Assembly: GCA_028283855.1 (NCBI GenBank) | Contig: JAPWJX010000005.1 | Location: 186,001-250,000, forward strand | DNA: 64,000 nucleotides | From: Verrucomicrobium sp. | GTDB taxonomy: Bacteria; Verrucomicrobiota; Verrucomicrobiia; Methylacidiphilales; GAS474 | Direction of reading: 5' to 3' | Shown here: positions 1-19,701 of the stretch, in pieces | How the letters are laid out: every line of letters begins with the position of its first letter | Position numbering within the stretch: position 1 is the first letter of the stretch | Position numbers and translations under genes: made by a program | The notes under the pieces: model-generated | Told to the model about the DNA's origin: nothing | What the model saw: the letters and a program-made list of their open reading frames with translations, nothing else | Databases searched by the model: none

Positions 1-650
1 CGTTCACCATGGCGCTCTACTCCTTTATCGGCGTGGCCGTCACCTCCGCCACGGCGGTCATCTACGGGAAGGCGATCTGGGATCCGGTGGAGGTCCTCAC
101 CCACATGCGCAATCCCGGCGTCCTTGTCATTTCCATGGTGGCCCTCTGCATCGCCACTCTGGCCACGAACCTGGCCGCCAACGTGGTCAGCCCGGCCAAC
201 GACCTGGCCCATCTTTCCCCGAAGCATATCTCCTTCCGCACCGGCGGTTTCATCACCGGGCTGGTCGGCCTCTTTATGATGCCGTGGAAGCTTCTGGCCG
301 ATCCTTCCGGCTACATCTTCACCTGGCTCATCGGCTACAGCGCCCTGCTGGGACCGATCGGCGGCATCCTCATCGCCGATTACTTCGTCTACCGGAAGCG
401 GCACCTGAAGCTGGCCGCGCTCTACCACGCGCGCGGGGAATACGCCTTCACCGGAGGCTACAGCGTCGTGGCGCTGGCCGCGCTGGCGTTGGCCGTGCTG
501 CCGAACCTGCCCGGCTTCCTCATGACGATCGGCGTCCTGCATTGGCACGCGCCGTTCCTGCTCTCCCTTTACCACTACGCCTGGTTCGTCGGCTTCGGCC
601 TGGCGTTCGTCCTCTACCTCATCCTCCGCCTCCCCTTCAAAAATGCATAA
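1..650 (+). CDS. NCS1-family nucleobase/hydantoin:cation symporter, C-terminal part (5' truncated by window)
   Basis: Inner-membrane permease of the NCS1 family (uracil, allantoin, hydantoin, thiamine and similar substrates). The reading frame is already open at the window edge, so the N-terminal half is missing. The visible part has about six hydrophobic segments. It carries the family's late conserved stretch around [19 protein letters not shown] and [12 protein letters not shown], followed by a basic loop YRKRH. It ends at a TAA that overlaps the next gene's ATG by 8 bases, so the two are co-translated. The neighbouring AGXT2-like aminotransferase suggests a hydantoin/pyrimidine substrate, but the exact substrate cannot be read from this fragment. 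Confidence 0.88.
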
Positions 651-1989: not shown

Positions 1990-1999
1990 CCCTCCTGGG

Positions 2000-3217
2000 G
2001 TGAAGCTCCACCGCGGCCTGATCGCCCTGCTGGCCTTTTTGGCCATGCTGGGGCCGTTCTCCATCGACACGTACCTGCCGTCGTTCCCGGCCATGGGCCG
2101 GTATTTCGGCGTGGGTCCGGCGGCGATCCAGCAGACGCTCACCGTTTTCCTCCTGGCGATGGCGGTGATGACCCTCTTCCACGGGACCCTCTCCGACGCT
2201 TGGGGAAGGCGGCCCATTATTTTGGCGGGGCTCTCCGTCTACGCGCTGGCCTCGGTCGGCGCGGCTCTGGCGCCGCGGGTCGGCGTCCTCGTCTTCTTCC
2301 GGCTGGTTCAGGGGCTTTCCGTCGGCGTCGGCATCGTCGTGGGCCGGGCGATGATCCGGGACCGCCTTTCCGGCCCGGAGGCGCAGAAGGCGATGTCGAC
2401 GGTCACCGCCGTCTTCGGCCTGGCGCCGCTGATCGCGCCGCTTTTGGGCGGATGGCTGGAGGTGGCCCTGGGATGGCGCTCCGTCTTCGTCTTCATGGGG
2501 CTCTACGGGGCGCTCCTGCTAACGGCCTGCGGGCGGAGTCTTAAGGAGACGCTGGTGCCGGAGGCCCGCGTGCCGTTGCGGCTGCGGGCCACGCTGCGCG
2601 CCTACGGACGGGTGGCGGCGGATCGGCGCTTCCTGAGCCAGTGCCTGGGCATGACGCTGGCCTCCTCCATGCTTTTCCTTTATGTCAGCGCGGCGCCGGT
2701 CTTCCTCATGCAGCTCTTGCACCTGCCGCCGACGGCCTTCGCCTGGCTCTTCACGCCGCTCATTACCGGGATGACGCTGGGGGCGATCGTCTCCGGCAAG
2801 CTGGCCCACCGCTGGCCGCCCAAGCGGACGATCTGGACCGGCTACGGGATCATGGGCGGCGCCGTGGCGGTGAACGTGGCCTATAACGCCCTGGCCGCGC
2901 CGGCGGTTCCCTGGGCCGTGCTGCCGATCATGGTCTACACCTTCGGCATGGCGTTGGCCTCTCCCGCCATGACGATTCTGACGCTCGACCTTTTTCCGGC
3001 CAACCGGGGCCTGACCGCCTCCCTCCAGGCAGCCATCCAGCTGGGGACTTTCTCCCTCATCGCGGGCGTGGTGGCGCCCCTTATCTTCCACAGCGGCCTG
3101 CTGCTGGCCGTGGGAGCCGCCGCCGGATGGCTGGCGGGGTTGCTTTGTTGGAAATGGGGAGCGGGCGGCCCCGACTCGGCCGGGGAGCCGAAGCCGCCCG
3201 GCGAAGTTACTTTTTGA
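2000..3217 (+). CDS. MFS multidrug exporter, Bcr/CflA family
   Basis: Inner-membrane proton-driven exporter of about 405 residues with twelve predicted helices. The Bcr/CflA hallmarks are visible: FSIDTYLPSFPAM in helix 1, motif A as GTLSDAWGRRP in the loop after helix 2, and a helix-4 stretch VQGLSVGVGIVVGRAMIRD. The start is GTG, 10 bases after the aminotransferase stop, so it is probably in the same operon. Its 3' end overlaps the convergent DUF5069 gene by 11 bases. Family members export chloramphenicol, bicyclomycin or sulfonamides; the real substrate here is unknown. Confidence 0.85.
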   Translation: MKLHRGLIALLAFLAMLGPFSIDTYLPSFPAMGRYFGVGPAAIQQTLTVFLLAMAVMTLFHGTLSDAWGRRPIILAGLSVYALASVGAALAPRVGVLVFFRLVQGLSVGVGIVVGRAMIRDRLSGPEAQKAMSTVTAVFGLAPLIAPLLGGWLEVALGWRSVFVFMGLYGALLLTACGRSLKETLVPEARVPLRLRATLRAYGRVAADRRFLSQCLGMTLASSMLFLYVSAAPVFLMQLLHLPPTAFAWLFTPLITGMTLGAIVSGKLAHRWPPKRTIWTGYGIMGGAVAVNVAYNALAAPAVPWAVLPIMVYTFGMALASPAMTILTLDLFPANRGLTASLQAAIQLGTFSLIAGVVAPLIFHSGLLLAVGAAAGWLAGLLCWKWGAGGPDSAGEPKPPGEVTF

Positions 3218-3644
3218 AGCTGGCCTTGTCGTCCGCCTCGAGCATGTCGAAGAGGGTGCTCTTGGCCGGATCGATGCCCAGGGGCTCGCAGGCGCCGACG
3301 AACCATTCCTTCTTCTCCGGGTTCTCGTACGGCTTGGCGGCTTCCATCGAGTCGGACCAGGCCTTGATCTCCTCCGCCGTGCGGGGCGTGCCGCTCTTTT
3401 CGAGCCAGGCGGCGAGGTCGGCGTCGCTGGCGCCGGTTTCCAGGAGCTTCTTCACGTCGGCGTCCTTCACGCCCTTGAATTCGAAGAGTACCTGGTCCAG
3501 GGGACAGGCGAAGTGATACTCGCCCACCTTGCCCTGGAGGTCGGCGCGGCCCTTGTCGGCCATGCGGGAGAGGAGGGCGTAGCCGCCCGTGCGGACGCGG
3601 GGGCTGGTGGGGGCTTCTTTGGTCAGGTCTTTGATTTGGCTCAT
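3207..3644 (-). CDS. DUF5069 domain protein
   Basis: Soluble protein of 145 residues covering the whole DUF5069 domain. The family signature is near the N-terminus (DLTKEAPTSPRVRTGGYALL) and again in GEYHFACPLDQVLFEFKG. The family is frequent in Verrucomicrobia and Planctomycetes and has no assigned activity. The gene starts with ATG at 3644. It faces a small-protein gene across an AT-rich palindromic region that carries -10-like sequences on both strands. It is probably monocistronic. Confidence 0.85.
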   Translation of the reverse strand: MSQIKDLTKEAPTSPRVRTGGYALLSRMADKGRADLQGKVGEYHFACPLDQVLFEFKGVKDADVKKLLETGASDADLAAWLEKSGTPRTAEEIKAWSDSMEAAKPYENPEKKEWFVGACEPLGIDPAKSTLFDMLEADDKASFKK

Positions 3645-4112: not shown

Positions 4113-5879
4113 ATGAAACTTTTGCAAAGCTTCCGTTCCCTGATGCGGCTGGCGGGCCCCCACCGGGGCAAGCTGGTCGTCTCGGCCGTCTGCGGCGTGC
4201 TGGCGGGGTGGATCGGCATGATTCCCTTCGCACTGGTGGCCGCGATTGGGCAGGCCTTCCTGCGGCATGACGCGGAACGCCGCCATATTCTGGCGTTGAC
4301 CGGCTGGGCGGTGGGGGCGCTCCTGGCCCGCTACGCTTTCCTGGCCGCCGGCAAGCTGCTTTCCCACCTGGCGGCTTACCGCACGATGTATGACCTGCAG
4401 CTGGCGCTGGCCAAGAAGATCGGCGCTCTGCCGCTGGGGGCGGTGATGGAGCGGGGCTCCTCCACGCTGAAGAAGACGGTGCTCCAGGATACCGACGTGG
4501 CCCACACGCTCCTGGGCCATTACCTGTCTGACTTCCTGGTCGGCCTCACCGTTCCGGCAGCCACCCTGGCCGTCTTTTTTTGGGTCGATTGGCGGCTGGC
4601 GCTGGCGGCGGCGGCGGTATTGCCGTGCCTCTACCTGGCCTACCGCGCCTCCTTCCGCAATTACGAAAAGGAGCTGGAAGCCTATTTCCGCGCCGACGAG
4701 AGGATGCAGTCCGGATTGGTGGAGTACGTCTCCGGCATCATGGCCATTAAGACCTACAACCGGGACCTCTCCCGCTTTCTGCGGGAGGCGGTCTGGGGTC
4801 AGGTGGAGCAGTCGGTCCTCTGGGCGGAGCGGACGCTCAAGCCCTGGTCGGCCTTCAACGTCTTGCCCGACCTGAGCCTCCTCTTTATCCTGCCGGTCGG
4901 CCTTTGGCTGGTGGTGGAGCACCGGGTGGGATTCGACGTCCTCCTTTTCTTCCTCCTGCTGGGGGTCGGCTATTTGCAGCCGCTGGTCCGGCTCTCCATT
5001 CAGATCGGCCTGCTCAATTACGCGGGCAAGAGCCTGGAGCGGATCGAGTCGATCCTCAACGCCCCGGCGCTGACGGCGGCAGGCCCCGTTCTTTCTCCGG
5101 AAGGAAACGCCCTGGTGCTCGACCGCGTCTCCTTTTCCCACCACGGAGCGGAGGCCGCCGCTTTGGAGGAAGTCAGCCTCACGATCCCGGAGGGTACCAC
5201 CTGCGCGATCGTCGGCCCCTCCGGCGCGGGCAAGTCGACCCTGGCGCAGCTCATCGGCCGGTTCTGGGACGTGGAGAGCGGCGCGATCACGATCGGCGGC
5301 GCAGACCTGCGCCAGGTGGAAGAGGAGGAGCTGTACCGCCGCGTCTCCTTCGTTTTCCAGGACGTCTTCCTGTTCCGGGGGACGGTGGCCGACAATCTCC
5401 GCCTGGCCAAGCCGGAGGCGAGCGATGCCGAGATCGTCGCCGCGGCGAAGATGGCGCGCGCGCACGAATTCATCATGGCGATGCCCCGGGGCTACGAAAG
5501 CCAGGTGGGGGAGAAGGGCGGCTTTCTCAGCGGCGGGCAGAAGCAGCGGCTCTCCATCGCCCGTGCCATCTTGCGAAACGCGCCTCTCCTCATCCTGGAC
5601 GAGGCGACGGCCTACGCCGACCCCGTGAACGAAGCGGAAATCCAAAAGGGGTTGCGGGCCCTGATGAAGGGGCGAACGGTCGTCATGATCGCCCATCGCC
5701 TCTCCACCGTCGTCGGCGCGGACCAGATCGCGGTCCTGAACCGGGGCAGGCTGGTCGCGGCCGCCCCGCATGAGGCGCTCCTGCGGGAATGCCCCCTCTA
5801 CGCCTCCCTCTGGCGCGACTACAGCGAGGCCGCTCACTGGCACTTCGACGAGCATTCCCAACCAAGCCTGGCCCGATGA
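4113..5879 (+). CDS. Half ABC exporter (permease-ATPase), YbtP/IrtA-like
   Basis: Inner-membrane half-transporter of 588 residues. An N-terminal type-IV transmembrane domain (about 1-320) is fused to an ATPase. Walker A is GPSGAGKST (368-376), the ABC signature LSGGQKQR starts at 472, and Walker B with switch is ILDEATAYADPVNE (from 494). The EATA(Y/F)ADP wording after Walker B is typical of the siderophore-associated YbtP/YbtQ and IrtA/IrtB pairs rather than MsbA (EATSALD). It is the first gene of a coupled operon and should pair with the next gene as a heterodimer that exports the operon's product. Direction cannot be proven: YbtPQ and IrtAB import despite an exporter fold. No clear Shine-Dalgarno precedes the ATG. 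Confidence 0.85.
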   Translation: MKLLQSFRSLMRLAGPHRGKLVVSAVCGVLAGWIGMIPFALVAAIGQAFLRHDAERRHILALTGWAVGALLARYAFLAAGKLLSHLAAYRTMYDLQLALAKKIGALPLGAVMERGSSTLKKTVLQDTDVAHTLLGHYLSDFLVGLTVPAATLAVFFWVDWRLALAAAAVLPCLYLAYRASFRNYEKELEAYFRADERMQSGLVEYVSGIMAIKTYNRDLSRFLREAVWGQVEQSVLWAERTLKPWSAFNVLPDLSLLFILPVGLWLVVEHRVGFDVLLFFLLLGVGYLQPLVRLSIQIGLLNYAGKSLERIESILNAPALTAAGPVLSPEGNALVLDRVSFSHHGAEAAALEEVSLTIPEGTTCAIVGPSGAGKSTLAQLIGRFWDVESGAITIGGADLRQVEEEELYRRVSFVFQDVFLFRGTVADNLRLAKPEASDAEIVAAAKMARAHEFIMAMPRGYESQVGEKGGFLSGGQKQRLSIARAILRNAPLLILDEATAYADPVNEAEIQKGLRALMKGRTVVMIAHRLSTVVGADQIAVLNRGRLVAAAPHEALLRECPLYASLWRDYSEAAHWHFDEHSQPSLAR

Positions 5880-7633
5880 TCGGACGCCTTCTCCAATTCG
5901 GAAAGGGGGCGGGTCCCAGCTTGCCCCGATATGAAAAGGCCCTCGGCGGCCAGCGCGGCGCGCTTTTTCTCCGCCTGGCGGAGAGCCTGCTGTTGGCCGC
6001 CGTCTACCTGCTGCTCTATCCCACGCTCCGCCGCCTTTTTGCGGGGACCCTTAGCGAGGCCTACATCGTCAAGGTCACCGTGGCGATGGCCGCCTGCCAT
6101 GCGCTGCGGATGGCGCTCTTCCACCGCTCGGCGGTCGTCATCTACACGGCCAGCTACGCCCGGATCGGCGCGCTCCGGCTCCGCATCGCGGAGCATCTGC
6201 GGGCGTTGCCGCTGGGCGCCTTCCAGGCCGACCGCCTGGCCCATGTGAAGAGCGTTCTCACTGAAGACCTCCAGCTCGTCGGCCAGATGGCGGGAAGCCT
6301 GGTAGGCTTCTTCATCTCGGCGGTGGGCCTGCCGTTCTTCCTGGCGGCCGGCCTGGCCTTTCTCAACGTGAAGCTGGCCGCGGCGCTCGTCGCGGGCCTT
6401 CTTCTGTGCCTGCCGGTTTACCGGTGGATGCACCGTTTCATGGCCCGGCACAGCCGCCTGCACTTCCAGAACATCTCCCAGTCGAGCGCCCGGCTGCTGG
6501 AATACGTCATGGGCATCAAGGTCCTCAAGTCCTACGGCCTTACCGGCAAGCGATTCATTCAGCTGGAAACCTCCCTGGCGGGGACCCGGGACTCGGTTCT
6601 GGCCCTGGAGCTGGGGGCGATCTCCTTCCTGGTCGTCCTGACGCTGCTGGTCGAGTTCGGCTTTCCTCTCCTTCTCGTCTGCGGGACCTATGCGGTGCTC
6701 GGCGGGACGGTCGACGTGCCGACCTTCCTCTTCGCCCTGATCCTCTCCGTCCGCTTTTACGCGCCGATTCAGGAGGCCTTCGCCCTCTCGACCGAGTTCC
6801 AATACCTCAACGCCGCCCTGGACCGCGTGGACGGGGTGCTCTCCCTGCCCCGCCAGGAGGTCCCCGAGCGGGCAGAGCGTCCCCGCGCCTTCGACATCGA
6901 GTTCCAGAACGTCTCCTTCCGCTACGAAGAGGGCGGCGCGCCCGTCCTCCAGGACGTCTCTCTCCGTATTCCGGAGGGGAGCATGACGGCGCTCGTCGGC
7001 CCTTCCGGCGCGGGGAAGACCACGGTCAGCAACCTCGCTGCCCGCTTCTGGGACCCCGATCAGGGGCGCGTCCTCATCGGCGGCGTGGACCTGCGCCGGA
7101 TGGAGGCGGATGAACTCCTGGGAGACATCGCGATCGTTTTCCAGGACGTGGTCCTCTTCCACGACACGGTGCGGGAGAACATCCGCATGGGCCGTCCGCA
7201 GGCCAGCGACGCGGAGGTGGAGGAAGCCGCCCGCCGCGCTCAGTGCCATGACTTCATCCTGCGCCTGCCCCGGGGCTATGAGACCCTCATCGGGGAGGGG
7301 GGCGGCCGTCTTTCCGGCGGGGAGAAGCAGCGGCTCTCCATCGCCCGCGCGCTCCTCAAAGACGCCCCCATCGTGCTCCTGGACGAGGCGACAGCCTCCA
7401 TCGATCCCTCCGCCGAGAAGGACATCCAGAAGGCCTTCGCCGCCCTTTCCGAGAACAAGACCCTAGTCGTCATCGCCCACAAGCTGGCGACCGTCACCCA
7501 TGCCGACCAGATCGTCGTGCTGGAAGAGGGCCGCATCGTCCAGCGCGGCACCCATGCCGAGCTGCTGGTCTCCGGCGGCCTTTACAAGACGATGTGGGAG
7601 AGCCAGGCGGCCGCCGCCTCCTGGCACATTTGA
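5876..7633 (+). CDS. Half ABC exporter (permease-ATPase), YbtQ/IrtB-like partner
   Basis: Second half-transporter, 585 residues from the ATG that overlaps the previous stop (ATGA at 5876-5879). I preferred this start to an upstream in-frame ATG inside the previous gene. The transmembrane domain covers about 1-315. The ATPase has Walker A GPSGAGKTT (374-382), signature LSGGEKQR (from 479) and Walker B VLLDEATASIDPSAE, then the switch histidine in IAHKLAT. Both partners keep complete ATPase motifs. Both also end with an aromatic Trp-His tail (HWHF / SWHI). The pair most likely forms the transport unit for the molecule built by the downstream enzymes. Confidence 0.85.
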   Translation: MIGRLLQFGKGAGPSLPRYEKALGGQRGALFLRLAESLLLAAVYLLLYPTLRRLFAGTLSEAYIVKVTVAMAACHALRMALFHRSAVVIYTASYARIGALRLRIAEHLRALPLGAFQADRLAHVKSVLTEDLQLVGQMAGSLVGFFISAVGLPFFLAAGLAFLNVKLAAALVAGLLLCLPVYRWMHRFMARHSRLHFQNISQSSARLLEYVMGIKVLKSYGLTGKRFIQLETSLAGTRDSVLALELGAISFLVVLTLLVEFGFPLLLVCGTYAVLGGTVDVPTFLFALILSVRFYAPIQEAFALSTEFQYLNAALDRVDGVLSLPRQEVPERAERPRAFDIEFQNVSFRYEEGGAPVLQDVSLRIPEGSMTALVGPSGAGKTTVSNLAARFWDPDQGRVLIGGVDLRRMEADELLGDIAIVFQDVVLFHDTVRENIRMGRPQASDAEVEEAARRAQCHDFILRLPRGYETLIGEGGGRLSGGEKQRLSIARALLKDAPIVLLDEATASIDPSAEKDIQKAFAALSENKTLVVIAHKLATVTHADQIVVLEEGRIVQRGTHAELLVSGGLYKTMWESQAAAASWHI

Positions 7634-7646
7634 TTTGGAGACACCC

Positions 7647-9122
7647 ATGCAGACCAACACCCTGGAAAAACCCGCCAATCCCTCGCTTCCCGTCCGCGTC
7701 CCGCCCCGCCTGGGCCCGGAGATGAAGGCCCTCTTGGACAGCACCGATACCCTCTTCCGCGCCGCCGCGCTGCATAATGGCCCCGTTCACCTCATCACCC
7801 CGGGCGCGTTGGAGCGGAACGTCGCGCAGATGCGGGAGGCCTTCGAGAGCCTGGGCCTCGACCATCAGATCTACTTCGCCCACAAGGCGTGCAAGTCGTC
7901 GGCCCTGGCCAAGCAGGCGCGGAAAAGCGGCATCGGCATCGACGTCGCCTCCCGCAACGAGCTTGTCGCCGCCCTGGGGGCCGGCTTCACCGGGGAGCGG
8001 ATCATCTGCACCGGGCCAAAGAACCGGGAATTCCTTCGCCTGGCCCTCATGCAGGGCTGCCTTATCTCCTGCGACTCGGAGGACGAGCTGGAGAAGTTGG
8101 CCGAGCTTTTGGAAGAGCACCCGGAGATCGCGTCCGCCCAGATTCTCCTGCGCATCAGCAACATCCGCTCCCGCGACCGCAGCGCCATTGCCGCCGCCTC
8201 CCGCTTCGGCATTCCGCAGGAGAGCCTGCCGCGGATCTTCGAGTGGCTGCCCACCGTGCCCCGCCTCGTCCTCAAGGGCTTCCACAACCACAATGACGAG
8301 CGGAATCGGGACGCCAAGGCGGGCTTCATCGACAACCTTCTTTCCCTGATGGAGCAGGCTTACGCGGCGGGCTTCGCGCCGACGATCGTCGATATCGGCG
8401 GCGGCCTGCGCAGCATCCGCGTGGCCAACGCCCAGGACTGGTCCGACTTCATCGACCAGCTTGCCCAGGGCCTCCTGGACAAAACCGGGACCGGCACGTG
8501 GAGAAACTTCGGCCTCGGCATGTCGATCAGCGAAAAGGGGGCCATCGCCGGCCGTGAGCGGGTACAGGGCAAATACGCCTCCGACGAGGAGTTCCAGGAC
8601 GTCCTAACCACCGTGCTGCAGAACGACGCCTTCCGGGGCCGCCCCCTGGCGGAGATTTTCGCGGAGAACATGTTCTCCATCGCGGTCGAGCCGGGCTTCG
8701 CCCTCCTCCAGCAATGCGGGCTCACCCTCCTTCGCGTCGTGGGGGTCAAGGAGGCTGCCGACGGCACGCCGCTGGTCCTGGTCGACGGTAATATCTACAG
8801 CCTCTCCCAGGGCGTGACCGAGATCCTCTACGACCCCTACCTGATTCCCCGGCAGAAGGAAGGGCAGGCCCGCCCCTTTGCCGCCAACGTCATCGGCAAC
8901 ATGTGCCGGGAAGAGGACGTCATCACCAAGCGCCGCATCGTTTTCGACCAGGTGCCGCGGGAAGGGGATCTGCTTTGCTTCACGAATACCGCGGCTTACA
9001 ATTCGGACTTTGAGGACTCCAACCCTCACCAGCATCCGATGGGACGCCGCTTCGTCGCCCAGGAGCGGGGCGGGGAGTGGTCCCTCCTGTCCGAGGAAGC
9101 CTACAGCCCCTACGCCGCCTAA
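7647..9122 (+). CDS. Fold-type III PLP decarboxylase, Y4yA / diaminopimelate-decarboxylase-like
   Basis: 491-residue enzyme of the alanine-racemase-like barrel / DapDC family. The PLP lysine is K80 in YFAHKACKSS. A glycine-rich phosphate loop is at DIGGGLRS (249-256). The partner-subunit motif GNMCREED (417-424) supplies the Cys and Asp that complete the active site in DapDC/ODC enzymes. The overall pattern recalls the Y4yA group, found beside cysteine-synthase-like and siderophore genes in rhizobia. The ATG at 7647 follows a TTGGAG ribosome site and the exporter stop by 13 bases; the longer upstream frame is exporter sequence. It would decarboxylate an alpha-amino acid made by the next enzyme. 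Substrate unknown. Confidence 0.8.
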   Translation: MQTNTLEKPANPSLPVRVPPRLGPEMKALLDSTDTLFRAAALHNGPVHLITPGALERNVAQMREAFESLGLDHQIYFAHKACKSSALAKQARKSGIGIDVASRNELVAALGAGFTGERIICTGPKNREFLRLALMQGCLISCDSEDELEKLAELLEEHPEIASAQILLRISNIRSRDRSAIAAASRFGIPQESLPRIFEWLPTVPRLVLKGFHNHNDERNRDAKAGFIDNLLSLMEQAYAAGFAPTIVDIGGGLRSIRVANAQDWSDFIDQLAQGLLDKTGTGTWRNFGLGMSISEKGAIAGRERVQGKYASDEEFQDVLTTVLQNDAFRGRPLAEIFAENMFSIAVEPGFALLQQCGLTLLRVVGVKEAADGTPLVLVDGNIYSLSQGVTEILYDPYLIPRQKEGQARPFAANVIGNMCREEDVITKRRIVFDQVPREGDLLCFTNTAAYNSDFEDSNPHQHPMGRRFVAQERGGEWSLLSEEAYSPYAA

Positions 9123-9137
9123 CCAGAAACCAGACCT

Positions 9138-10568
9138 ATGATCATCGAGAAAATCCAAGACGCCATCGGCCGGACGCCGATCATGAAACTCGACCCGGCC
9201 AAAACCGGGCTGAAGAACATCGACCTTTACGCGAAGCTCGACCTGCTCAATCCCTTCGGCTCCCTCAAGGACCGCATCGCCCAGGGCATGCTGGAGCCGC
9301 ACATGGCAGAGCTTTTGGCCAAGAAGAAGACCGTCATCGAGGGGTCTAGCGGCAACACCGCCAAGTCCCTGGCCGCCATCTGCGCGGTCAACGGCCTGGA
9401 CTTTCGCGTCTATACCAACCGCATCAAGCTGCCGGAAATCCGCATGATCCTGCAGCTCCTGGGCGCGCAGATCGAGGAGCTGCCCTCCCTCTCCGACTGC
9501 CCGGACCCGATGGACAACAACAGCTTCTTCGCCGTGGCCGACGGCGTGGCCAAGGCGGAGCCGGAGAAATACCTCTACACCGACCAGATATTCAACCCCC
9601 TCAACCTCCAGTCCCATTACGCCACCACGGCCAAGGAGATTCACGAGGACATCGGCGAGTTTCACTACTACATCAACTTCCTGGGCACCTGCGGCTCCAG
9701 CATGGGCGTCATCAAATACGCCAAGGAGAACTTCAAGGAGAAGACGGCGTGCTGGGGCGTCGTCGCCTCTCCCGGCCACCACGTGCCGGGCGGCCGCAAC
9801 ATGAACGAGCTGTGGGAGACCAGCTTCTTCGACAAGGACGTCTTCGACGAATTCATCCACGGCACCGCGCGGGACTCCGTGGAGGGGATCATCTCCCTCT
9901 GCCGCAACTTCGGCATCCTGGCGGGGCCTACCTCCGGCCTCCAATACCATGTCGGCCTCAAGCGCCTTCAGGAAGAGGACGCCAAGCTGGAGGGCACCGG
10001 CGTGAGGAAGAAGGCCGCCTTCATCATCTGCGACCGGGTCGAGCCCTACATGACCTACATCAAGAAATACTATCCCGAGCTATTCACCACCGCCACGTCG
10101 ACGCGCCCCCGCGTCGACGCCCTGTCCGCGGCGGATGTGGAGGCGGCGCCCGCCCTGGAGGCGGAGGCGCTGTCCCAGTTCCTTGGGGATGGAAACCCCC
10201 TGGTCATCGACGTGCGCGGCAACTTTGCCTACAACATGGGCCACCTGCCCGGCGCGGTGAACATCCTGGACGAGCTCTTCGGCCAGATGATCGAAGAGGG
10301 GCCGATCTCCGACAAGAGCCGGAAGATTCTGGTTGCCTGCGGCATCGGCAACATTTCCCGGAAATACGCCGCCTTCCTGCGCACGCAGGGTTATGACGCC
10401 TATTCCCTCAAGGGCGGCATCAACGGCTGCAAGAAGGCGGGCGTCACGCTGGCTTCCGGCATGGCCAAGCCGGAGACGGGCGGCGCCCACACCGTGGCCA
10501 ACCAGGCCCGGGAAAAGGGCTACGTCAGCCTCAGCGGCCTGAAGCAGCGCGCGGAGAGCGGCGTATGA
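9138..10568 (+). CDS. Cysteine-synthase/SbnA-like PLP enzyme fused to a C-terminal rhodanese domain
   Basis: 476 residues in two domains. Residues 1 to about 316 are a fold-type II PLP enzyme: PLP lysine K44 in GSLKDR, substrate loop SSGNTAKS (70-77), and a phosphate-binding loop GTCGSSMG (183-190) where cysteine synthases have GTGGT. A linker leads to a rhodanese domain (about 340-440) with DVRG, GHLPGAVN and a loop CGIGNIS whose cysteine (C401) is at the persulfide-forming position. The family catalyses beta-replacement on O-acetyl- or O-phosphoserine. The fused domain suggests sulfur is delivered as a persulfide. It overlaps the next gene by ATGA. A homologue of SbnA is possible, but no SbnB dehydrogenase is present. 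Confidence 0.82.
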   Translation: MIIEKIQDAIGRTPIMKLDPAKTGLKNIDLYAKLDLLNPFGSLKDRIAQGMLEPHMAELLAKKKTVIEGSSGNTAKSLAAICAVNGLDFRVYTNRIKLPEIRMILQLLGAQIEELPSLSDCPDPMDNNSFFAVADGVAKAEPEKYLYTDQIFNPLNLQSHYATTAKEIHEDIGEFHYYINFLGTCGSSMGVIKYAKENFKEKTACWGVVASPGHHVPGGRNMNELWETSFFDKDVFDEFIHGTARDSVEGIISLCRNFGILAGPTSGLQYHVGLKRLQEEDAKLEGTGVRKKAAFIICDRVEPYMTYIKKYYPELFTTATSTRPRVDALSAADVEAAPALEAEALSQFLGDGNPLVIDVRGNFAYNMGHLPGAVNILDELFGQMIEEGPISDKSRKILVACGIGNISRKYAAFLRTQGYDAYSLKGGINGCKKAGVTLASGMAKPETGGAHTVANQAREKGYVSLSGLKQRAESGV

Positions 10569-11287
10569 GCACCTTCATCGACACCGCGGACAACTACCAA
10601 TACATGTTCCGCCCGCTCAGCCACATGCGGCGGGAGAAGTTCAAGCGCATCGTCGCCCGCGTGGGCGGCGGCGACGTCCTGGACCTGGGCTGCGGACAGG
10701 CCGGACATTACTGGGCCATGGGCTACGCCCACAAGGCGGACAGCCTCTCCTTCTACGACATCGTGCCGGAGAACATCGCCGAGCAGCAGGCCAGCATCGA
10801 GACCCTCTCTCCCGACTTCCTGGCCGAAAGTTTCGGAGAGACCCTTGGCTTCCTCGGCGCGGAGGGGATCATCCCCCAGCCCGTCGATCCCCAGTCGATC
10901 GCGGAGAACATCGTGGGCAAGACCGTCGACGTGCGGGTTTTCAACTTCATTCACGACAAGGCCGACCGTCAGTTCGACTTCGTCATGGCGATGGAGTCGA
11001 TCGAGATCGCCGACACCTACGCGGAGTTCGTCTCCTCCCTGCGGACGGCCAAGTCCCTCCTAAAGCCGGGCGGGCTCTTTCTGGGCGTCATCCTGCCCTA
11101 TGACGTGCTGCTGCCCACCACCCAGGAGCAGATCAGCATCAAGCGGGAAGGCATCCTAAACCCCCGTGTCGAAGAGACGCGCCAGGCCTTCTCCGACGCG
11201 GGCTGGAACCTGGAGGCCCTGGAAACCTACAAGACCCTGCAGGCCAATTACGACGAGGCGATTTGCTTCTACGCCCGCCACGCCTAA
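10565..11287 (+). CDS. Class I SAM-dependent methyltransferase (first of two paralogues)
   Basis: 240-residue soluble methyltransferase. SAM motif I is VLDLGCGQAGHYWAMGY (about 38-54). A post-I acidic position follows in SLSFYDIVPEN, and the motif IV/V area is MAMESIEIADTYAEF plus LLKPGGLFLGV. It shares motif-I wording (DLGCG..G.YWA.GY..KA..L.F.D) with the methyltransferase two genes downstream, so the two are paralogues. The start overlaps the previous stop. It likely N- or S-methylates an intermediate of the operon's product. No motif fixes the acceptor atom. Confidence 0.8.
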   Translation: MSTFIDTADNYQYMFRPLSHMRREKFKRIVARVGGGDVLDLGCGQAGHYWAMGYAHKADSLSFYDIVPENIAEQQASIETLSPDFLAESFGETLGFLGAEGIIPQPVDPQSIAENIVGKTVDVRVFNFIHDKADRQFDFVMAMESIEIADTYAEFVSSLRTAKSLLKPGGLFLGVILPYDVLLPTTQEQISIKREGILNPRVEETRQAFSDAGWNLEALETYKTLQANYDEAICFYARHA

Positions 11288-11303
11288 ACAAGGAAAACGG
11301 ATC

Positions 11304-11849
11304 ATGACCATGGTTGAACAGTTCGTCGCCGATTGCGTCGCCGCCCTAGACAAAGCCGATCCGCCCGCCGAGATCGAGAAGCTCCTCCAGCGCTTCATGG
11401 CCGACGCGGAGGCCCTTAAGGCCGCCCTGCCGCCGATCGACGTGGAAGACTACCTCCTGCACCAGTCCCCGCTCCTGAGCATCTACCACATCCGGTTCGA
11501 GCCGGGCGTCGGCTATCCGGCGCACAACCACGGCATGCCGGTCGTCTCCGGCATCTACGAGGGCGTGGAGACCAACCGCATCTATCGTGAGAGAGAGGAC
11601 GGGAAGATCGAGTTCCTCAAGGAGGTCGAGTTCACCCATCCGCATACCTTCATCATGCGGGATGGAGTCCATGCGGCCTCCAACCGCGGCACCATTCCCT
11701 CCCTGGGCTTCCATATCCACGTCGGCGACTTCTACGGAGCGCCCCACTACCTGTGGGATGAGAAGACCGGGGAAAAGTTCCCTTACAGCGACAAGAAATT
11801 CGTCGAGCTGGCGACCTATCCCCCCGGCTATCCGGTGCCGCAGGTCTGA
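11304..11849 (+). CDS. Cupin metalloenzyme, cysteine-dioxygenase-like
   Basis: 181-residue single-domain cupin. Metal-ligand candidates are H74 and H76 in PAHNHGMPVV, and a later set in DGVHAASN (H123) and GFHIHVGDF (H137/H139). The arrangement resembles cysteine dioxygenase and related thiol dioxygenases, where three histidines hold Fe(II). Start chosen at 11304 because an AAGGAAAA ribosome site precedes it; the longer frame is antisense to nothing recognisable and lies in the previous gene. The stop overlaps the next ATG (TGATG). In this operon it could oxidise a thiol or thioether intermediate. A true cysteine dioxygenase role is not established. Confidence 0.75.
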   Translation: MTMVEQFVADCVAALDKADPPAEIEKLLQRFMADAEALKAALPPIDVEDYLLHQSPLLSIYHIRFEPGVGYPAHNHGMPVVSGIYEGVETNRIYREREDGKIEFLKEVEFTHPHTFIMRDGVHAASNRGTIPSLGFHIHVGDFYGAPHYLWDEKTGEKFPYSDKKFVELATYPPGYPVPQV

Positions 11850-12532
11850 TGCAGGAAGCCTGCGACTTCGACTACATCTACGCCCCGCTGACTCCCTACC
11901 GGGCGGAGATCCTCCGCTTTGTGGAGCGCCATGTGCCGGAGGGGGCCTCCGTCCTCGACTTGGGGTGCGGCGCGGTCGGCTTCTATTGGGCGCTGGGCTA
12001 TCTGCGAAAGGCGGCGGCCCTCCGCTTCGCGGACCGGAACGAGGCGGTCCTGGCCGGGCTGGCCGCCCGCCTGGACCAGCTGACTCCGGCCATGCTGGAG
12101 CGCGATTTTGCCGACGTGCCACCCTCCGGCCTATCCCGGGAGACATGGCTGGAAAAGCTCCATGCCGTCGCGGACGTGGCCCAGATCGACGCCCTGGAAG
12201 CGGGGGAGGGAACCTATGGCGCTCTCCTGGCCGTCGAGCTTCTGGAGTGCGCCCAGGATGAGGAGGAACTGCGGCGCATCGCTTCCTTCTGCGCCGCCCG
12301 TCTGGTTCCGGGAGGGCGCCTGATCGGCTGCACGCTGGATTACGTGGCGTGGACGCCCTCCCTGGAGGCGCTGGCCCGGGAGCGCCTGGCCGGCCGGGTC
12401 CGGATTGAGGAAAAGACGCTGCGGCAGGCGATAGAGGACGCGGGCTTAAAGGTGGCGGATTGGTCCGTTTTCTCCACCGGGATGGAGAACCATCCCCGCG
12501 CCTATTTCTTCTGCGCGGAAAAACCGGCCTGA
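11849..12532 (+). CDS. Class I SAM-dependent methyltransferase (second paralogue)
   Basis: 227-residue methyltransferase with motif I VLDLGCGAVGFYWALGY (35-51). The acidic post-I residue is in LRFADRNE, followed by AVELLECAQDEEEL and LVPGGRLIG. Clearly related to the methyltransferase encoded at 10565-11287 but diverged, so the two probably act on different positions or successive steps. It begins at the overlapping TGATG of the cupin gene. Its last 31 bases overlap the convergent cysteine desulfurase gene. Last gene of the operon. Acceptor unknown. Confidence 0.78.
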   Translation: MQEACDFDYIYAPLTPYRAEILRFVERHVPEGASVLDLGCGAVGFYWALGYLRKAAALRFADRNEAVLAGLAARLDQLTPAMLERDFADVPPSGLSRETWLEKLHAVADVAQIDALEAGEGTYGALLAVELLECAQDEEELRRIASFCAARLVPGGRLIGCTLDYVAWTPSLEALARERLAGRVRIEEKTLRQAIEDAGLKVADWSVFSTGMENHPRAYFFCAEKPA

Positions 12533-13650
12533 TCCCGGATCGCCGCGGCCGTTTCCGCAACGCTGGCCAAGAGGGCTTCGGCGTCCGCCTGCGTCGTGGG
12601 GCGGCCGAAGCTGACCCGCAGGCATTCGTGGGCGAAGAATTCCATCCGCATGGCAGCCATCACGTGGGAGATCTCTTCCCCGCCCGTGCTGCAGGCGGAG
12701 CCGCGTGCCACGGCGATTTCGGGAAGCGCCGCCATCAAGTCGGCCATCGGCACGCCGGGGATCTGGAAGTGGCTGACGTGGGACAGACGGGGGGAAGGCT
12801 CCCCGTTCACGCGCAGATCGGGAAAGGAGGCGCGGAGGCCTTCTTCAAAGCGGTTCCGGATGTCCTGAAGGCGGCGGGCCTCCTCCGTCATCCCGGCTAG
12901 GGCCGCATCGACCGCCGCGCCCAAACCGACGGTGAGGGGGACCGCCACCGTGCCGGAGCGGAGCCCATCCTGCTGGCCGCCGCCATGGATCTGGACACCC
13001 AGGCGGGATCGGAGGCCCGGTCCCACGTAGAGGGCGCCGATGCCCTTGGGCCCGTAAAGCTTGTGGGCGGAAAGGGAGAGAAAATCAGGGACGGTTTCCA
13101 GGGGGATCTTGCCTGCGGCCTGGGTGGCGTCCGTGTGGAAGAGGATGCCGCGCTCCCGGCAGAGCCGGGCGGCGGCCTCGACGGGCTGGATCACGCCGGT
13201 CTCGTTGTTCGCCCACATGACGCTGGCAAGGAGGACGTCCTCGCCGAGTCGGGAAGTGAAAGCGTCGACGTCCAGCGCTCCGTCGTTGTTGACCGGCAGC
13301 TCATCCACGGTGAAGCCGCGCCCCCGCAGGAAGCGCGCGGTCTCTAAGACGCTGGGGTGTTCGATGGCGGAAACCAGGATGCGGGTGCGGCCCGCCGGGG
13401 CCAGGTCGGCTAGGCCCTTGAGAACCAGGTTGTTGGCCTCCGTGGCGCCGGAGGTAAAGGTCCACTCCCCCCGGGCGCCCGGGAGCAGGCGGGCCAGCTT
13501 GGCACGGGCCTCTTCCACCGCCTCCTTGGCGTCCAGGCCGTAGATGTGCGCGTCAGCGTGGGGGTTTCCGAAGCGGCCCTCCCAGTAGGGGCGCATGGCG
13601 TCGAGGACGCGGGGATCGGGAGGCGTGGTGGCCAGGTAGTCGAAATACAC
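12502..13650 (-). CDS. Cysteine desulfurase (NifS/IscS family)
   Basis: 382-residue class V PLP enzyme that removes sulfur from cysteine as a protein persulfide. Visible are the PLP-stacking histidine in SAIEHPS (H98), the aspartate in FHTDATQAAG, the PLP lysine K197 in SAHKLYGPKG, and the persulfide cysteine C320 in ARGSACSTGGEE. The start is GTG at 13650. The gene is 13 bases downstream of the TAXI gene on the same strand and convergent with the exporter/biosynthesis operon. It could feed general Fe-S or thionucleoside synthesis, or supply sulfur to the rhodanese fusion; the second idea rests on proximity only. Confidence 0.88.
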   Translation of the reverse strand: MYFDYLATTPPDPRVLDAMRPYWEGRFGNPHADAHIYGLDAKEAVEEARAKLARLLPGARGEWTFTSGATEANNLVLKGLADLAPAGRTRILVSAIEHPSVLETARFLRGRGFTVDELPVNNDGALDVDAFTSRLGEDVLLASVMWANNETGVIQPVEAAARLCRERGILFHTDATQAAGKIPLETVPDFLSLSAHKLYGPKGIGALYVGPGLRSRLGVQIHGGGQQDGLRSGTVAVPLTVGLGAAVDAALAGMTEEARRLQDIRNRFEEGLRASFPDLRVNGEPSPRLSHVSHFQIPGVPMADLMAALPEIAVARGSACSTGGEEISHVMAAMRMEFFAHECLRVSFGRPTTQADAEALLASVAETAAAIRDQAGFSAQKK

Positions 13651-13663
13651 GGCGGCGCGGGAA

Positions 13664-14995
13664 TTAGGCGGTGATCTTGGCGCGAACGAAATCGACGTGC
13701 TGCCTCAGGGAGTAGAACTGGTCGGCAAAGGAGGCGGGCAGCCGTAGCTGGTTGACCGCCTGTTCGATCTCTTCCAGCCGCTTGAGGAGCGGCGCGCGGT
13801 CGCCTTCGGGATGGGTGAAGAGGTCCTTTTCCAGCGCCAGCAGGGCGCGATACCACCGCAGGAGCCGCCCGCGCATCCGCCACCGGTAGGCGACTGGCAG
13901 CAGCCGCAGCGTGGGCAGGATGACGACGATGGCCGGGATGATCACCACCAGGATGCGGCTGACCACGCTGGCCAGCCAGAAAGGGAGGTGGTGGTAGAGG
14001 AAGCTCTTCCCGGATCGGTAATAGCGCAGCGCGTCGTCGCTCAGGCGGAAGCCGTGTTCCATCGGCGCGGGGAATTCGCCTTTCTTTTGGAACAGGGAGG
14101 GGCGCCCGTGGATTTCCTGGGCCGCGCCGAGGATCAGGTCGGACAGGGCGGGATGGAGCTTTTTCCGCGCGACGAGCTCGATGGTCGGCCCCACCAGGTA
14201 AACGTCCCGGGGCGGGACGTCCTTGGCCAGGTCGATCGCGCCCTCGGGCATCTTAAGCGTGCTCAGCCAGTTGAAGCGGCGGGCGTAGGCTTCCTGCTGG
14301 GAAAAGCTTAAGAGATGGACGCCGGGCGCGGTGAGCAGCCCGCGAAGGATGGCGATGGAGGCGTCCTCCCCCATGAGAAAGACGGCGTCCACCTGGCCGT
14401 TCAAGAGCGCCTGGGAGGAGCGCTGCGGGTCCCAATCCAGGAGTGTGGTGGCCCCGTCCGGACGGATGCCGTTGGCCTCCAGAAGGGTGAGGGCGATCTG
14501 CCGCGTGCCGCTGCCCTGGCTGCCGATGACGACGCGCTTCCCGGCCAGAGCGGCCAGGGTGTCGACCGCCGTCGTGCCGCGGTAGAAGACGAGGAGGGGC
14601 TGGTAGGAGACGCTGCCCAGGGACATGAGATTGGGATATTCCTCCGACGTGACGCCGTCCTGGACGAAGCCGATGTCGACCTTGGCGGAGGGATCGTTCA
14701 GCCGTTGCAGGTTTTCCAAGGAGCCGTGGGAGGAAAGGACGCGGAGCGTCACGCCTTGGCGTTTGAGGATCGCGGCGTATTTCTGCGCGGTCGTGTAAAA
14801 AATGCTCCCCTCCGGACCGGCGGTGATCGTGAGGTGGGTGGGAGGCGCGGAGTGGATGAAGAAGAAGACGGCGGCGACGATGACCAGCGCGATGAAGCAA
14901 GCCGCTCCGATGGCGCCTTGATGGCTGATGCCGAAGGTTTCTTCCAATCGGGAGAGGGGAGCGTTGAGTTTGGAGGGGGCTTCCGGGGGATTCAT
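13664..14995 (-). CDS. Membrane-anchored TAXI-family TRAP solute-binding protein
   Basis: 443 residues. An N-terminal membrane anchor (about 27-48) precedes the TAXI periplasmic binding domain, with LTITAGPEGSIFYTTAQKYA, DIGFVQDGV, and GKRVVIGSQGSGTRQIA. The C-terminal part has one or two further hydrophobic segments (about 350-375) and a helical cytoplasmic-looking tail. Classical TAXI proteins are soluble and lie next to a fused TRAP permease. Here there is no permease, and extra membrane segments are present, so a sensory or tethered-capture role is possible. Same strand as and just upstream of the cysteine desulfurase. Confidence 0.8.
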   Translation of the reverse strand: MNPPEAPSKLNAPLSRLEETFGISHQGAIGAACFIALVIVAAVFFFIHSAPPTHLTITAGPEGSIFYTTAQKYAAILKRQGVTLRVLSSHGSLENLQRLNDPSAKVDIGFVQDGVTSEEYPNLMSLGSVSYQPLLVFYRGTTAVDTLAALAGKRVVIGSQGSGTRQIALTLLEANGIRPDGATTLLDWDPQRSSQALLNGQVDAVFLMGEDASIAILRGLLTAPGVHLLSFSQQEAYARRFNWLSTLKMPEGAIDLAKDVPPRDVYLVGPTIELVARKKLHPALSDLILGAAQEIHGRPSLFQKKGEFPAPMEHGFRLSDDALRYYRSGKSFLYHHLPFWLASVVSRILVVIIPAIVVILPTLRLLPVAYRWRMRGRLLRWYRALLALEKDLFTHPEGDRAPLLKRLEEIEQAVNQLRLPASFADQFYSLRQHVDFVRAKITA

Positions 14996-15040: not shown

Positions 15041-15052
15041 GATAGAAAGGGG

Positions 15053-15123
15053 AGCGGGTGAAGGGAATCGAACCCTCGTGTGCAGCTTGGAAGGCTGCCG
15101 TTCTACCATTGAACTACACCCGC
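15053..15123 (-). tRNA. tRNA-Gly (anticodon TCC)
   Basis: Read on the minus strand, a complete cloverleaf. The acceptor stem is GCGGGTG/CACCCGC, the D-arm contains AGTTCAATGGTAGA, the anticodon loop is CTTCCAA giving TCC, and the T-arm is GGGTTCGATTCCC. The discriminator is U, as usual for tRNA-Gly. CCA is not encoded. It lies 15 bases downstream of tRNA-Arg on the same strand, probably one transcript. Confidence 0.95.
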
Positions 15124-15138
15124 GGGAAAATTGAAAAT

Positions 15139-15212
15139 TGGGCCCTAAAGGATTCGAACCTTTGACCTTCTGATCCGTAGTCAGACGCTCTAATCCGCTG
15201 AGCTAAGGGCCC
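15139..15212 (-). tRNA. tRNA-Arg (anticodon ACG)
   Basis: Minus-strand cloverleaf of 74 bases. The acceptor stem is GGGCCCT/AGGGCCC, the D-arm TAGCTCAGCGGATTAGAGC, the anticodon stem TCTGA/TCAGA with loop CTACGGA giving ACG, and the T-loop GGTTCGAATCC. The discriminator is A. A34 would need TadA editing to inosine to read CGU/CGC/CGA. CCA is not encoded. Upstream member of a tRNA-Arg/tRNA-Gly pair. Confidence 0.95.
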
Positions 15213-15258
15213 GTGAAGGAAAAGCAAGAGTGCCGAAATCGCCGAATTTGGCAAGCCC

Positions 15259-15897
15259 CTAAAAGATTCCCCGGTCGACCTGGATCTGGTCGCCCGCCTG
15301 GAGGGCGATGTCCAGGGTGGGATTCTTGAGGGCCTCGACGGCGTTGAAGCGGATAAGGGCGCCGTTGCGCAGGATTTTGACCTTTCGCTTGTTGGCGTAG
15401 TCGGTGAAGCCGCCGCAGGCGGTGATGGCGCGCAGGACGCTGAGGTCGTTGGTGAAGGGGATGCGCTGGGGCTGGCGGACCTCCCCGCTCACGTTCACGT
15501 AGCGCAGCTGGGGGACGATGGTGATGTTGGGGGTGGAGTAAATTTTCTTTTCCCGGTAGGCCGTCTCGATGTCTTCCTTGAGCTGGGAGGTGGTGCGGCC
15601 CGCGGCCTGAAACTTGCCCGCGTAGGGCATGGAGATGTCGCCCTCGTCGCCGATCTTCACCTCGTAGATGCCGGCGTCGTCCGAGGGGACGCCGGAGAGG
15701 CGAATGGTCAGGACGTCGCCGACGCGCAGGAGGTCGGTTTCCGGCGCGGCGGCCGGGGTCTGGGCCGTTCCTTCCGGGGTGACGGCGGGGGAGGGCTGGT
15801 AGGCGGCGGTGCCGGTGTTGGCGCCGGTGGAGGAGAAGCCGCCGCCGCAGGCGGCGACGAGGAGGCAGGCGGCCAGGAGCAGGAGGAGGCGGTTCAT
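15259..15897 (-). CDS. Short Wza-type polysaccharide export lipoprotein
   Basis: 212-residue lipoprotein with a signal peptide ending in LLVAAC (Cys about 16). A Thr/Ala/Pro-rich linker follows, then a polysaccharide-export domain (DVLTIRLSGVPSDDAGIYEVKIGDEGDISMP) and a single SLBB-like domain (VNVSGEVRQPQRIPF...LRAITACGGFTDYANK). Wza from E. coli is about 380 residues with a C-terminal amphipathic helix. This protein lacks the second SLBB repeat and that helix, so it probably cannot form the outer-membrane pore alone. The upstream barrel protein may supply the pore. Last gene of a three-gene export operon. Confidence 0.87.
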   Translation of the reverse strand: MNRLLLLLAACLLVAACGGGFSSTGANTGTAAYQPSPAVTPEGTAQTPAAAPETDLLRVGDVLTIRLSGVPSDDAGIYEVKIGDEGDISMPYAGKFQAAGRTTSQLKEDIETAYREKKIYSTPNITIVPQLRYVNVSGEVRQPQRIPFTNDLSVLRAITACGGFTDYANKRKVKILRNGALIRFNAVEALKNPTLDIALQAGDQIQVDRGIF

Positions 15898-15914
15898 CGG
15901 AAAAGGGGAGGGTT

Positions 15915-18152
15915 TTAGAAATCCTCGGTGCGGACGGGCGTGGGGGCGTGGATGCCGTTGCCGTTGGCGGAGGGGCCGCCCTTGCCCTTCTTGTCGTCAC
16001 GCCGTGCCTGCTTCTTTTTTCCTTCGGTCGGCTTGCCGTAGTAGTCGGCGTAGGCGCCGTAGTGGTAGTAGCCCTCGTCGGCGTGGCGGGAGACGGCGTT
16101 GAGGACGACGCCGATGAGGTTTCCCTGCACCTCGGTGATGGTGTGCTTGGCACGCAGGGAGATGTCCTTGGGGTAGCGGCGGTGCTGGATGACGAGGACG
16201 GTCTTGTCGACCTCGTGGCAGATGATGGAGGCGTCGCTCACGCCCAGGGCGGGCGGGGAGTCGATGAGGACGACTTGATACAGGCTCTTCAGCTCGTCGA
16301 GCATCCGGCGCAGGGCTTGGTTGCTGAAGCGGTTTTTGGCCTCCGCGGGATTGGAGCCGGCCAGGACGACGTGGAGGTTCGGGATGGGGGTGGAGAAGAG
16401 GTAGGGAGCCACGGGGCCGTCCTGTTCCAGGAAGTCGGAAAGGCCGGGGGCCAGGTCCCATCCCAGGATGCGGTGGAGGGAGGGGCGGCGGAGGTCGGCG
16501 TCGACCAGGACGACGGACTTGCCCGCCTGGGCGCAGACGTAGCCGAGGTTGAAGAGGGTGGTCGACTTGCCCTCGCCGGGGCCGCCGCTGAGGATGCTCA
16601 AGGCGTTGCCCTGCTGGGGGCCGCTGCCGTTTTGCAGATCGATGCGGGCGCTGAGGATGCGGTAGCTCTCGGCAAAGGGGGAATCGGGCGGCTCCTGGTT
16701 GAGCGGGCGGGCGCCGTGGGGGACGAGGGCCAGGACGGGAACGCCCAGGACGCTTTCGACCTCCGCGATGGTCTTCACGCTGGTGTCGAGGTGCTCGATG
16801 AAGAAGGCGACGCCCAGGCCCAGGGCGAGGCCGCCGAAGCCGGCCAGGGCCAGGTTGAGGAGGAGGATGGGGCGGACGGGCTTCGGGTTGGGTTCCGCCG
16901 GGGAGATGATGAGGGCGGGCTCGCCGGTGACCTGCTTGTCGACGCTCTCCTGTTTGAAGCGGATGTTGAGCTGGTCGAGGATGATTTGCTGGGTTTCCGC
17001 GTATTTTACCGCGTCGAGGTAGGGGGCCATCTTGTCGCTTCGCTCTTCCCGGACTTTTTGCCGGAGGGAGTCGACGTCCTTCTTCAGGAGGGCCAACTTT
17101 TCCTGGCTGACCTGGAGGTCGATCTGCAGGGCGGTCCTCTTGCCTTCCGCCAGGCTGTTGAGCTGCTCGTTGAGTTTGGCCAGGGCGGCGCGGAGGGACT
17201 GGACGCGCGGATGCTCCGGCCCGAAGCCGCTCTTAAGCAGGCTTTGCAGGTTGGATTCCGCCTGGAACTTCTGGTCCTGGAGTTGGGTGATGTTGGTGTC
17301 GTCCAGGTTGAGGGAGGGCAGGGTGCTGAGGAGCTGCGCGTCGCTCAGGTTCTTGAGGCTCTCCAGGCGGACGCGGCGGGCCTCGGTGTCCGTGCGCTGC
17401 TCGTCGAGCATCTGCTGCTTGCGCTGGAGTTCCTGGTCGGTCAGCTGCATTTCCGCGCTGGTGCCGACGAGGCCGGTGACGTCGATGTCGAGCTTGCGGC
17501 GCAGGTCCTCGACGCGTTCTTTGGCCTTGCGGACTTCCTCCTGCTGGGTCTTGACCTGGTCGCTGACGCTTTGCAGGCCGCGGCTGGCGTTCTGCGTTTC
17601 GCGTTCGGTGCGGGAGGAGACGTATTGGCGGGCGATCTCGTTGGCGATGCGGGGGGCCTCCTCCATGTCCTCCGTCTGGACGGTGATTTCGATGATGTTG
17701 GAGCCGCGCTGGGGGTCGATCTTCAGGTGGTGGCGGCGGAGGAGGTCGTAGACCTCGTCCTTTCGCAGGTCCCGCTCCCCGTGCATGTAGCGTTGGGACC
17801 AGACGCGGACCAGGTCGAGCTTGTCGATGATGGGGTAGAGGATTTCCTTCGACTCCAGGGTCTCCTTTTCCGACTCGAAGAAGACGGGGTCGAAGTAGTT
17901 GGGATCCCGCTGGTCGAAGACGGGGATGTCCTTCTCGTTTTTCAGCACGCGGATCTGGACGGTGCCGCCGTACTGCTTGTTCATCAGGAAGGCGGAGACG
18001 ACGTAGCCCGTGCTGAGGGCCAAAAGGAAAAGGGTGAAGATGATCCCGGAGCGGGCGCGGATGACCCGCCAGTAATCGCGGAAAGCCGGTGTCTCGATGA
18101 GATCGGATGCGATAGCCATGTCGTGCAGCTTAAGGGCGGTGGGGGCCCTCAT
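15915..18152 (-). CDS. Wzc-like polysaccharide co-polymerase / tyrosine autokinase
   Basis: 745 residues. The N-terminal Wzz domain has a membrane segment at about 35-55, followed by a long periplasmic coiled-coil region (about 190-410) with GNVR-like LNIRFKQESV near its end. A second membrane segment is at about 428-450. The C-terminal BY-kinase domain has Walker A SGGPGEGKSTT, Walker A' VVLVDADLRRP and Walker B VVLIDSPP. A tyrosine cluster near the end (EGYYHYGAYADYYGK) is the usual autophosphorylation tail. It controls chain length and export of a capsule/exopolysaccharide. An in-frame ATG at 18119 (MAIASDL) is an equally good start. It sits between the barrel and Wza-like genes. Confidence 0.88.
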   Translation of the reverse strand: MRAPTALKLHDMAIASDLIETPAFRDYWRVIRARSGIIFTLFLLALSTGYVVSAFLMNKQYGGTVQIRVLKNEKDIPVFDQRDPNYFDPVFFESEKETLESKEILYPIIDKLDLVRVWSQRYMHGERDLRKDEVYDLLRRHHLKIDPQRGSNIIEITVQTEDMEEAPRIANEIARQYVSSRTERETQNASRGLQSVSDQVKTQQEEVRKAKERVEDLRRKLDIDVTGLVGTSAEMQLTDQELQRKQQMLDEQRTDTEARRVRLESLKNLSDAQLLSTLPSLNLDDTNITQLQDQKFQAESNLQSLLKSGFGPEHPRVQSLRAALAKLNEQLNSLAEGKRTALQIDLQVSQEKLALLKKDVDSLRQKVREERSDKMAPYLDAVKYAETQQIILDQLNIRFKQESVDKQVTGEPALIISPAEPNPKPVRPILLLNLALAGFGGLALGLGVAFFIEHLDTSVKTIAEVESVLGVPVLALVPHGARPLNQEPPDSPFAESYRILSARIDLQNGSGPQQGNALSILSGGPGEGKSTTLFNLGYVCAQAGKSVVLVDADLRRPSLHRILGWDLAPGLSDFLEQDGPVAPYLFSTPIPNLHVVLAGSNPAEAKNRFSNQALRRMLDELKSLYQVVLIDSPPALGVSDASIICHEVDKTVLVIQHRRYPKDISLRAKHTITEVQGNLIGVVLNAVSRHADEGYYHYGAYADYYGKPTEGKKKQARRDDKKGKGGPSANGNGIHAPTPVRTEDF

Positions 18153-18191
18153 GGGAAAGGATAAGGAAAAGGGCCTCGATGGGGAAGGCCA

Positions 18192-19559: not shown

Positions 19560-19669
19560 TCAGGCCGAAAAGGTCTTAAGCGAAGCAGCTTCTTACGTAA
19601 TTACCAGAGTAATTCATTTCACGCACCAAAAAAGTAAAATGCAGACAACGAATCAGAATGTGCGACAAA

Positions 19670-19689: not shown

Positions 19690-19701
19690 GTGTAAAGGGG
19701 G

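Follow-up and report, generated by a model that had tools for sequence, protein, structure and literature searches.

A bacterial PLP–rhodanese fusion enzyme apparently related to aspergillomarasmine A synthetase, encoded in a candidate small-metabolite operon

A 64,000-nucleotide stretch of a Verrucomicrobium sp. contig (the window) encodes a cysteine-synthase-like fold-II PLP domain joined to a C-terminal rhodanese in a single chain. This raises the question of which nucleophile the PLP domain uses and whether the rhodanese supplies it. A preliminary description took the fusion to suggest that sulfur arrives as a protein persulfide rather than as free sulfide. That interpretation as a whole is partly supported by the analysis presented here. 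The architecture stands, and the departure from a standard cysteine synthase can be placed on firmer ground, but the step from the fusion to a sulfur donor is not a safe one.

Architecture and conservation of the fusion protein

The frame translates into 476 residues with no internal stops. Pfam assigned residues 6–282 to PALP (PF00291, E = 6.5e-44) and residues 342–433 to Rhodanese (PF00581, E = 1e-16); as sequence matches, both lie far beyond chance. The PLP domain covers approximately residues 1–320 and contains K44 in a canonical NPFGSLKDR context, SSGNT at positions 70–74, a GTCGSS phosphate loop at 183–188, and R220. K44 and SSGNT align with the catalytic lysine and the Asn loop of CysM and CysK, and C401 aligns with the catalytic cysteine of GlpE at the head of the rhodanese active-site loop. 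Translation, Pfam and alignments thereby confirm the complete two-domain protein that had been described, with K44, SSGNT and C401 all present. The rhodanese has its catalytic cysteine in place, as an active sulfurtransferase would. At R220 the fusion lines up with the R220 of Mtb CysM, a residue known to recognise O-phosphoserine; the alignment is only suggestive of O-phosphoserine as the donor.

Homologs of the fusion were found in a Myxococcota MAG (locus L015, 66% identity to the window protein) and on two Streptomyces plasmids (loci L016 and L017, both 41%; strains NBC_01237 and BHT-5-2). C401, G404, S407 and R220 are invariant across the four bacterial proteins, down to 41% identity. Conservation at 66% and 41% identity indicates that the fusion is genuine and conserved rather than produced by a frameshift. 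The distribution is patchy. Two genome samples drawn from the phylum and class of the window (387 and 384 genomes) contained the fusion in the window's own genome only, and a scan of viral contigs with the fusion alignment and two rhodanese queries returned no relative of it. No bacterial PLP–rhodanese fusion of this kind was found in the literature searched, the coverage of which mostly left out subscription papers.

The phosphate loop had been given as the reason why the active site is not that of a standard cysteine synthase. The GTCGSS sequence is real, its homologs reading GTCGSS or GTAGSS and aspergillomarasmine A (AMA) synthetase GTSGT, and a G-T-x-G-S/T pattern is preserved in the window fusion and its relatives. 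As a ground for the claim, however, the loop is weak: it cannot separate the fusion from cysteine synthases because Mtb CysM, which is a genuine cysteine synthase acting on O-phosphoserine, reads GTTGT. The claim draws its support instead from phylogeny and gene context. The fusion scored 131.8 bits with the curated cysKM model (cut-off 344.15) and 115.1 bits with the SbnA model TIGR03945 (cut-off 349.95), passing neither, and also fell far below the cut-offs of the cysteine synthase equivalog models.

Gene neighbourhood of the fusion

The fusion gene belongs to a tight run of seven genes on one strand (4113–12532), several of which have overlapping stop and start codons (Table 1).

Table 1. 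Genes of the run and the adjoining desulfurase gene, in window coordinates.
Feature	Position	Strand	Remarks
ABC transporter half 1, fused permease and ATPase	4113..5879	+	Among bacterial PDB entries 6p6i_A (yersiniabactin importer type) matches best, IrtA next
ABC transporter half 2	5876..7633	+	ATG overlapping the half-1 stop taken as start; longer frame opens at 5789
Y4yA-type fold-III PLP decarboxylase	7647..9122	+	Internal ATG taken as start; longer frame opens at 7500
PLP fold-II/rhodanese fusion, 476 aa	9138..10568	+	Frame translation, Pfam, homolog alignment
SAM methyltransferase 1	10565..11287	+	ATG overlaps the fusion stop; conserved in L015
Small cupin-like protein, AHNHG	11304..11849	+	Mercaptosuccinate dioxygenase is the nearest PDB sequence, a weak match (E 0.014)
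SAM methyltransferase 2	11849..12532	+	Paralog of methyltransferase 1, 29%
IscS/NifS-type cysteine desulfurase	12502..13650	-	Convergent; overlaps the operon 3' end by 31 bases

The run resembles a small-metabolite or metallophore operon. Its first ABC half is YbtPQ/IrtAB-like and of siderophore type; other transporter families match it too, and as an indication of a metallophore operon it is suggestive only. The product plausibly binds metal, a view drawn from just the transporter type and the Y4yA kinship. No IucA/IucC siderophore synthetase gene was found in the window's genome and no TonB receptor near the fusion, the two receptors in the genome both lying on another contig. PADLOC gave no match.

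A Y4yA-type decarboxylase gene adjoins the fusion in all four loci, and in the Y4yA tree these fusion-adjacent proteins form one side of a branch (support 95/95). The window protein retains C-x-E-x-D near its C-terminus. Other Y4yA genes adjoin SbnA-type or Y4xP-type enzymes, the Y4xP ones in rhizobial siderophore operons. The Myxococcota locus has the order ABC, ABC, Y4yA, fusion, methyltransferase, followed by the contig end; in Streptomyces a Y4yA gene precedes the fusion, and a SufS-like desulfurase and then a methyltransferase follow it. This last protein has no recognisable relationship to methyltransferase 1 of the window, and a search of the plasmid collection with methyltransferase 1 and the cupin-like protein returned no match. 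Whether the IscS/NifS-type desulfurase of the window belongs to the system is uncertain; it is one of several desulfurase-like genes in the genome, where as a query it returned three further full-length relatives plus one weak match.

The genes upstream of the run at 9–3217, for a nucleobase permease, a class-III aminotransferase and an MFS protein, probably form a catabolic set of their own and were not counted with the operon. A DUF5069 protein is encoded at 3207–3644 (-), and DNA matches to it recur at several places in congeners. On the other side, a TAXI/NMT1-like substrate-binding protein with what looks like a membrane segment at its C-terminus (13664–14995, -) lies between the desulfurase gene and a conserved block. 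Matches to the DNA of the two congeners form a block only beyond about base 15045 and are scattered elsewhere. In congener G002 this synteny covers window positions 15045–21480, encoding a Wzc/ParA-like protein, a BBP2 porin and one further protein. The operon region left of about 15045 is without a counterpart in the congener stretch examined, and the operon proteins gave no match in the corresponding 18-kb stretch of one congener. This absence and the patchy distribution would fit horizontal acquisition. In the Streptomyces locus L016, a COG0523-type GTPase of the ZigA/MRF-like, zinc-related families is encoded upstream of the fusion operon (11217–12518), which hints at a connection with zinc there.

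Amine or sulfur as the nucleophile

A first structural model of the fusion built from two sequences had a pLDDT of 46; addition of three CysK-like viral-contig sequences raised this to 68, with a pTM of 0.66. The second model is usable for the PLP domain, but pLDDT falls below 50 in the linker and in portions of the rhodanese, and the domain arrangement is unreliable; full-length superposition on AMA synthetase gave an rmsd of 14–16 Å. Foldseek with this model returned the AMA synthetase structures 8h4q (with O-phosphoserine) and 8h4h (apo) as top matches over 472–475 aligned columns, and phmmer with the full fusion protein also placed them first. In a tree of the PLP domain only, the four bacterial fusions grouped with 8h4q with a support of 97/98, 8h4q being a very long branch and the one fungal sequence in the tree. 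Topology tests borderline rejected a position of the fusions beside Mtb CysM (p-AU 0.051) and retained one beside SbnA/Y4xP (p-AU 0.144). In profile comparison the PLP domain scored highest against Mtb CysM, and VIA-align of the model placed AMA synthetase (Z 31.6) level with Mtb CysM (Z 31.8). The fusion and AMA synthetase alignments have VPGxR, FIxCD and the rhodanese cysteine in common. With these caveats, tree and fold search support the assignment of the fusion as a putative bacterial member of the AMA synthetase lineage. This lineage probably includes Fda4, known here by description alone.

The same type of fusion is thus already known, in fungi. AMA synthetase joins O-phosphoserine to L-Asp, and Fda4 of Fusarium poae, a PLP enzyme that also has a rhodanese-like domain, joins it to L-Ala, each forming a C–N bond; Fda4 gave traces only when OAS replaced O-phosphoserine (PMC12751119). 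Because both enzymes use amino-acid amines, a PLP–rhodanese fusion is no evidence for a sulfur nucleophile. To read protein-persulfide sulfur from the fusion was therefore unsafe, given that AMA synthetase is the same fusion, retains the cysteine and uses nitrogen nucleophiles.

The reading that we prefer, with a probability of about one half, is an O-phospho-L-serine-dependent fold-II PLP enzyme of the AMA synthetase lineage that uses an amine nucleophile and whose conjugate is processed and transported. K44 would form the aldimine, and O-phosphoserine, its phosphate held by R220, would lose phosphate to give the aminoacrylate. A nucleophile, most likely an amino-acid amine, would add at C-beta and yield an N-(2-amino-2-carboxyethyl)-amino acid. 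This conjugate may then be decarboxylated by the adjoining Y4yA-type enzyme and modified by the cupin and both methyltransferases, after which the ABC pair would carry the product, plausibly a metallophore, through the membrane. As its closest relative appears to be a fungal C–N-forming enzyme, the fusion more likely builds a small transported metabolite than cysteine.

Kinship favours the amine, and the gene neighbours leave room for sulfur, which may still have a role because desulfurase genes adjoin the fusion gene. A desulfurase could charge C401 with persulfide, from which the PLP domain would add sulfur to the aminoacrylate. The product, a thiol amino acid such as cysteine or its persulfide, would then be processed by the decarboxylase, methyltransferases and cupin. 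We consider this possible but tentative. The route is chemically reasonable because Mtb CysM receives its sulfur via CysO, which is loaded by the rhodanese-domain protein MoeZR (PMC3227635). It agrees with the invariance of C401, G404 and S407 and with the top profile score of Mtb CysM; AMA synthetase, however, retains the same cysteine and yet forms C–N bonds. The Streptomyces neighbours argue for sulfur: in L016 the SufS-like desulfurase frame abuts or overlaps the 3' end of the fusion gene, L017 has the same order, and the enzyme retains the SufS catalytic cysteine and lysine. The window has an additional IscS/NifS paralog that converges on the operon, but it occupies the opposite strand and is unlike the SufS type of Streptomyces. 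The weak thiol-dioxygenase match of the cupin points the same way, although Pfam CDO_I did not detect this protein. Making cysteine with cysteine-derived sulfur would moreover be futile unless the product is something other than cysteine.

In a bolder version, which we regard as doubtful, the rhodanese persulfide, loaded by a dedicated desulfurase, would hand its sulfur to the aminoacrylate of the same chain to build a new sulfur metal binder, and the fungal C–N enzymes would be derived forms that kept the rhodanese. It is unlikely that the chain combines two activities, with the PLP domain making an amino acid conjugate and the rhodanese delivering sulfur elsewhere, so that the product would contain a Dap-like unit and a sulfur group; this would account for the fungal kinship and the desulfurase neighbours together, but no sulfur acceptor or adenylating enzyme was recognised in the gene run. 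That the fusion is an ordinary cysteine synthase which was duplicated, and whose rhodanese is regulatory or redundant, is highly improbable despite the general similarity to CysK and CysM, in view of its patchy distribution, its dedicated operon with decarboxylase and transporters, and a separate CysK-like gene in the window's genome, which probably makes the fusion dispensable for primary cysteine.

Comparison with known systems

These results extend the AMA-synthetase-type fusion, known from fungi, to bacterial operons with a decarboxylase, methyltransferases and a siderophore-type transporter, and these operons point to an uncharacterised small metabolite. With a desulfurase gene immediately downstream of the fusion in two of the bacterial versions, it also becomes a testable question why C–N-forming enzymes have a rhodanese whose cysteine is intact.

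SbnA and Y4xP systems resemble the window in that a fold-II PLP enzyme adjoins a Y4yA-type decarboxylase. Their enzymes differ from the fusion in having no rhodanese and in forming separate tree branches, and an octopine dehydrogenase or FAD enzyme lies nearby, with IucA/IucC in the rhizobial operons. No SbnB-type, octopine or FAD dehydrogenase partner was found among the genes of the seven-gene run, and the Sulfitobacter FAD enzyme as query had no match in the window's genome. The Sulfitobacter plasmid operon itself (L019:9390-13413) encodes SbnA, an FAD/NAD(P)-binding protein (NAD_binding_9) and Y4yA, and resembles a bacterial version of the diaminopropionate module formed by fungal Fda4 and Fda3. 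In three rhizobial loci (L021:9534-19575, L022:9462-17682 and L023:9363-17683), Y4xP-type 'cysteine synthase' genes lie between Y4yA and octopine/nopaline dehydrogenase plus IucA/IucC, with a TonB siderophore receptor near; these enzymes may make diaminopropionate for a siderophore, not cysteine.

Mtb CysM shares the PLP fold and the aligned R220 with the fusion (Z 31.8 over 290 residues, rmsd 2.6). It has no rhodanese and takes its sulfur from a separate carrier, CysO loaded by MoeZR. Fda4, likened to the window fusion by its published description, is likewise a PLP and rhodanese-like enzyme, uses O-phosphoserine and belongs to a small-metabolite cluster. It differs in being paired with the FAD oxidoreductase Fda3 for the release of Dap, and its cluster as described is without the decarboxylase and methyltransferases of the window operon (PMC12751119). 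The closest parallel is fungal AMA synthetase (8h4h, 8h4q), in which a fold-II PLP domain is likewise followed by a rhodanese in one chain and the cysteine is retained. Identity between the two is about 25%, with AMA synthetase on a long branch; in contrast to it, the window protein retains the canonical NPFGSLKDR around the PLP lysine and is encoded in a bacterial operon together with a decarboxylase, methyltransferases and an ABC pair.
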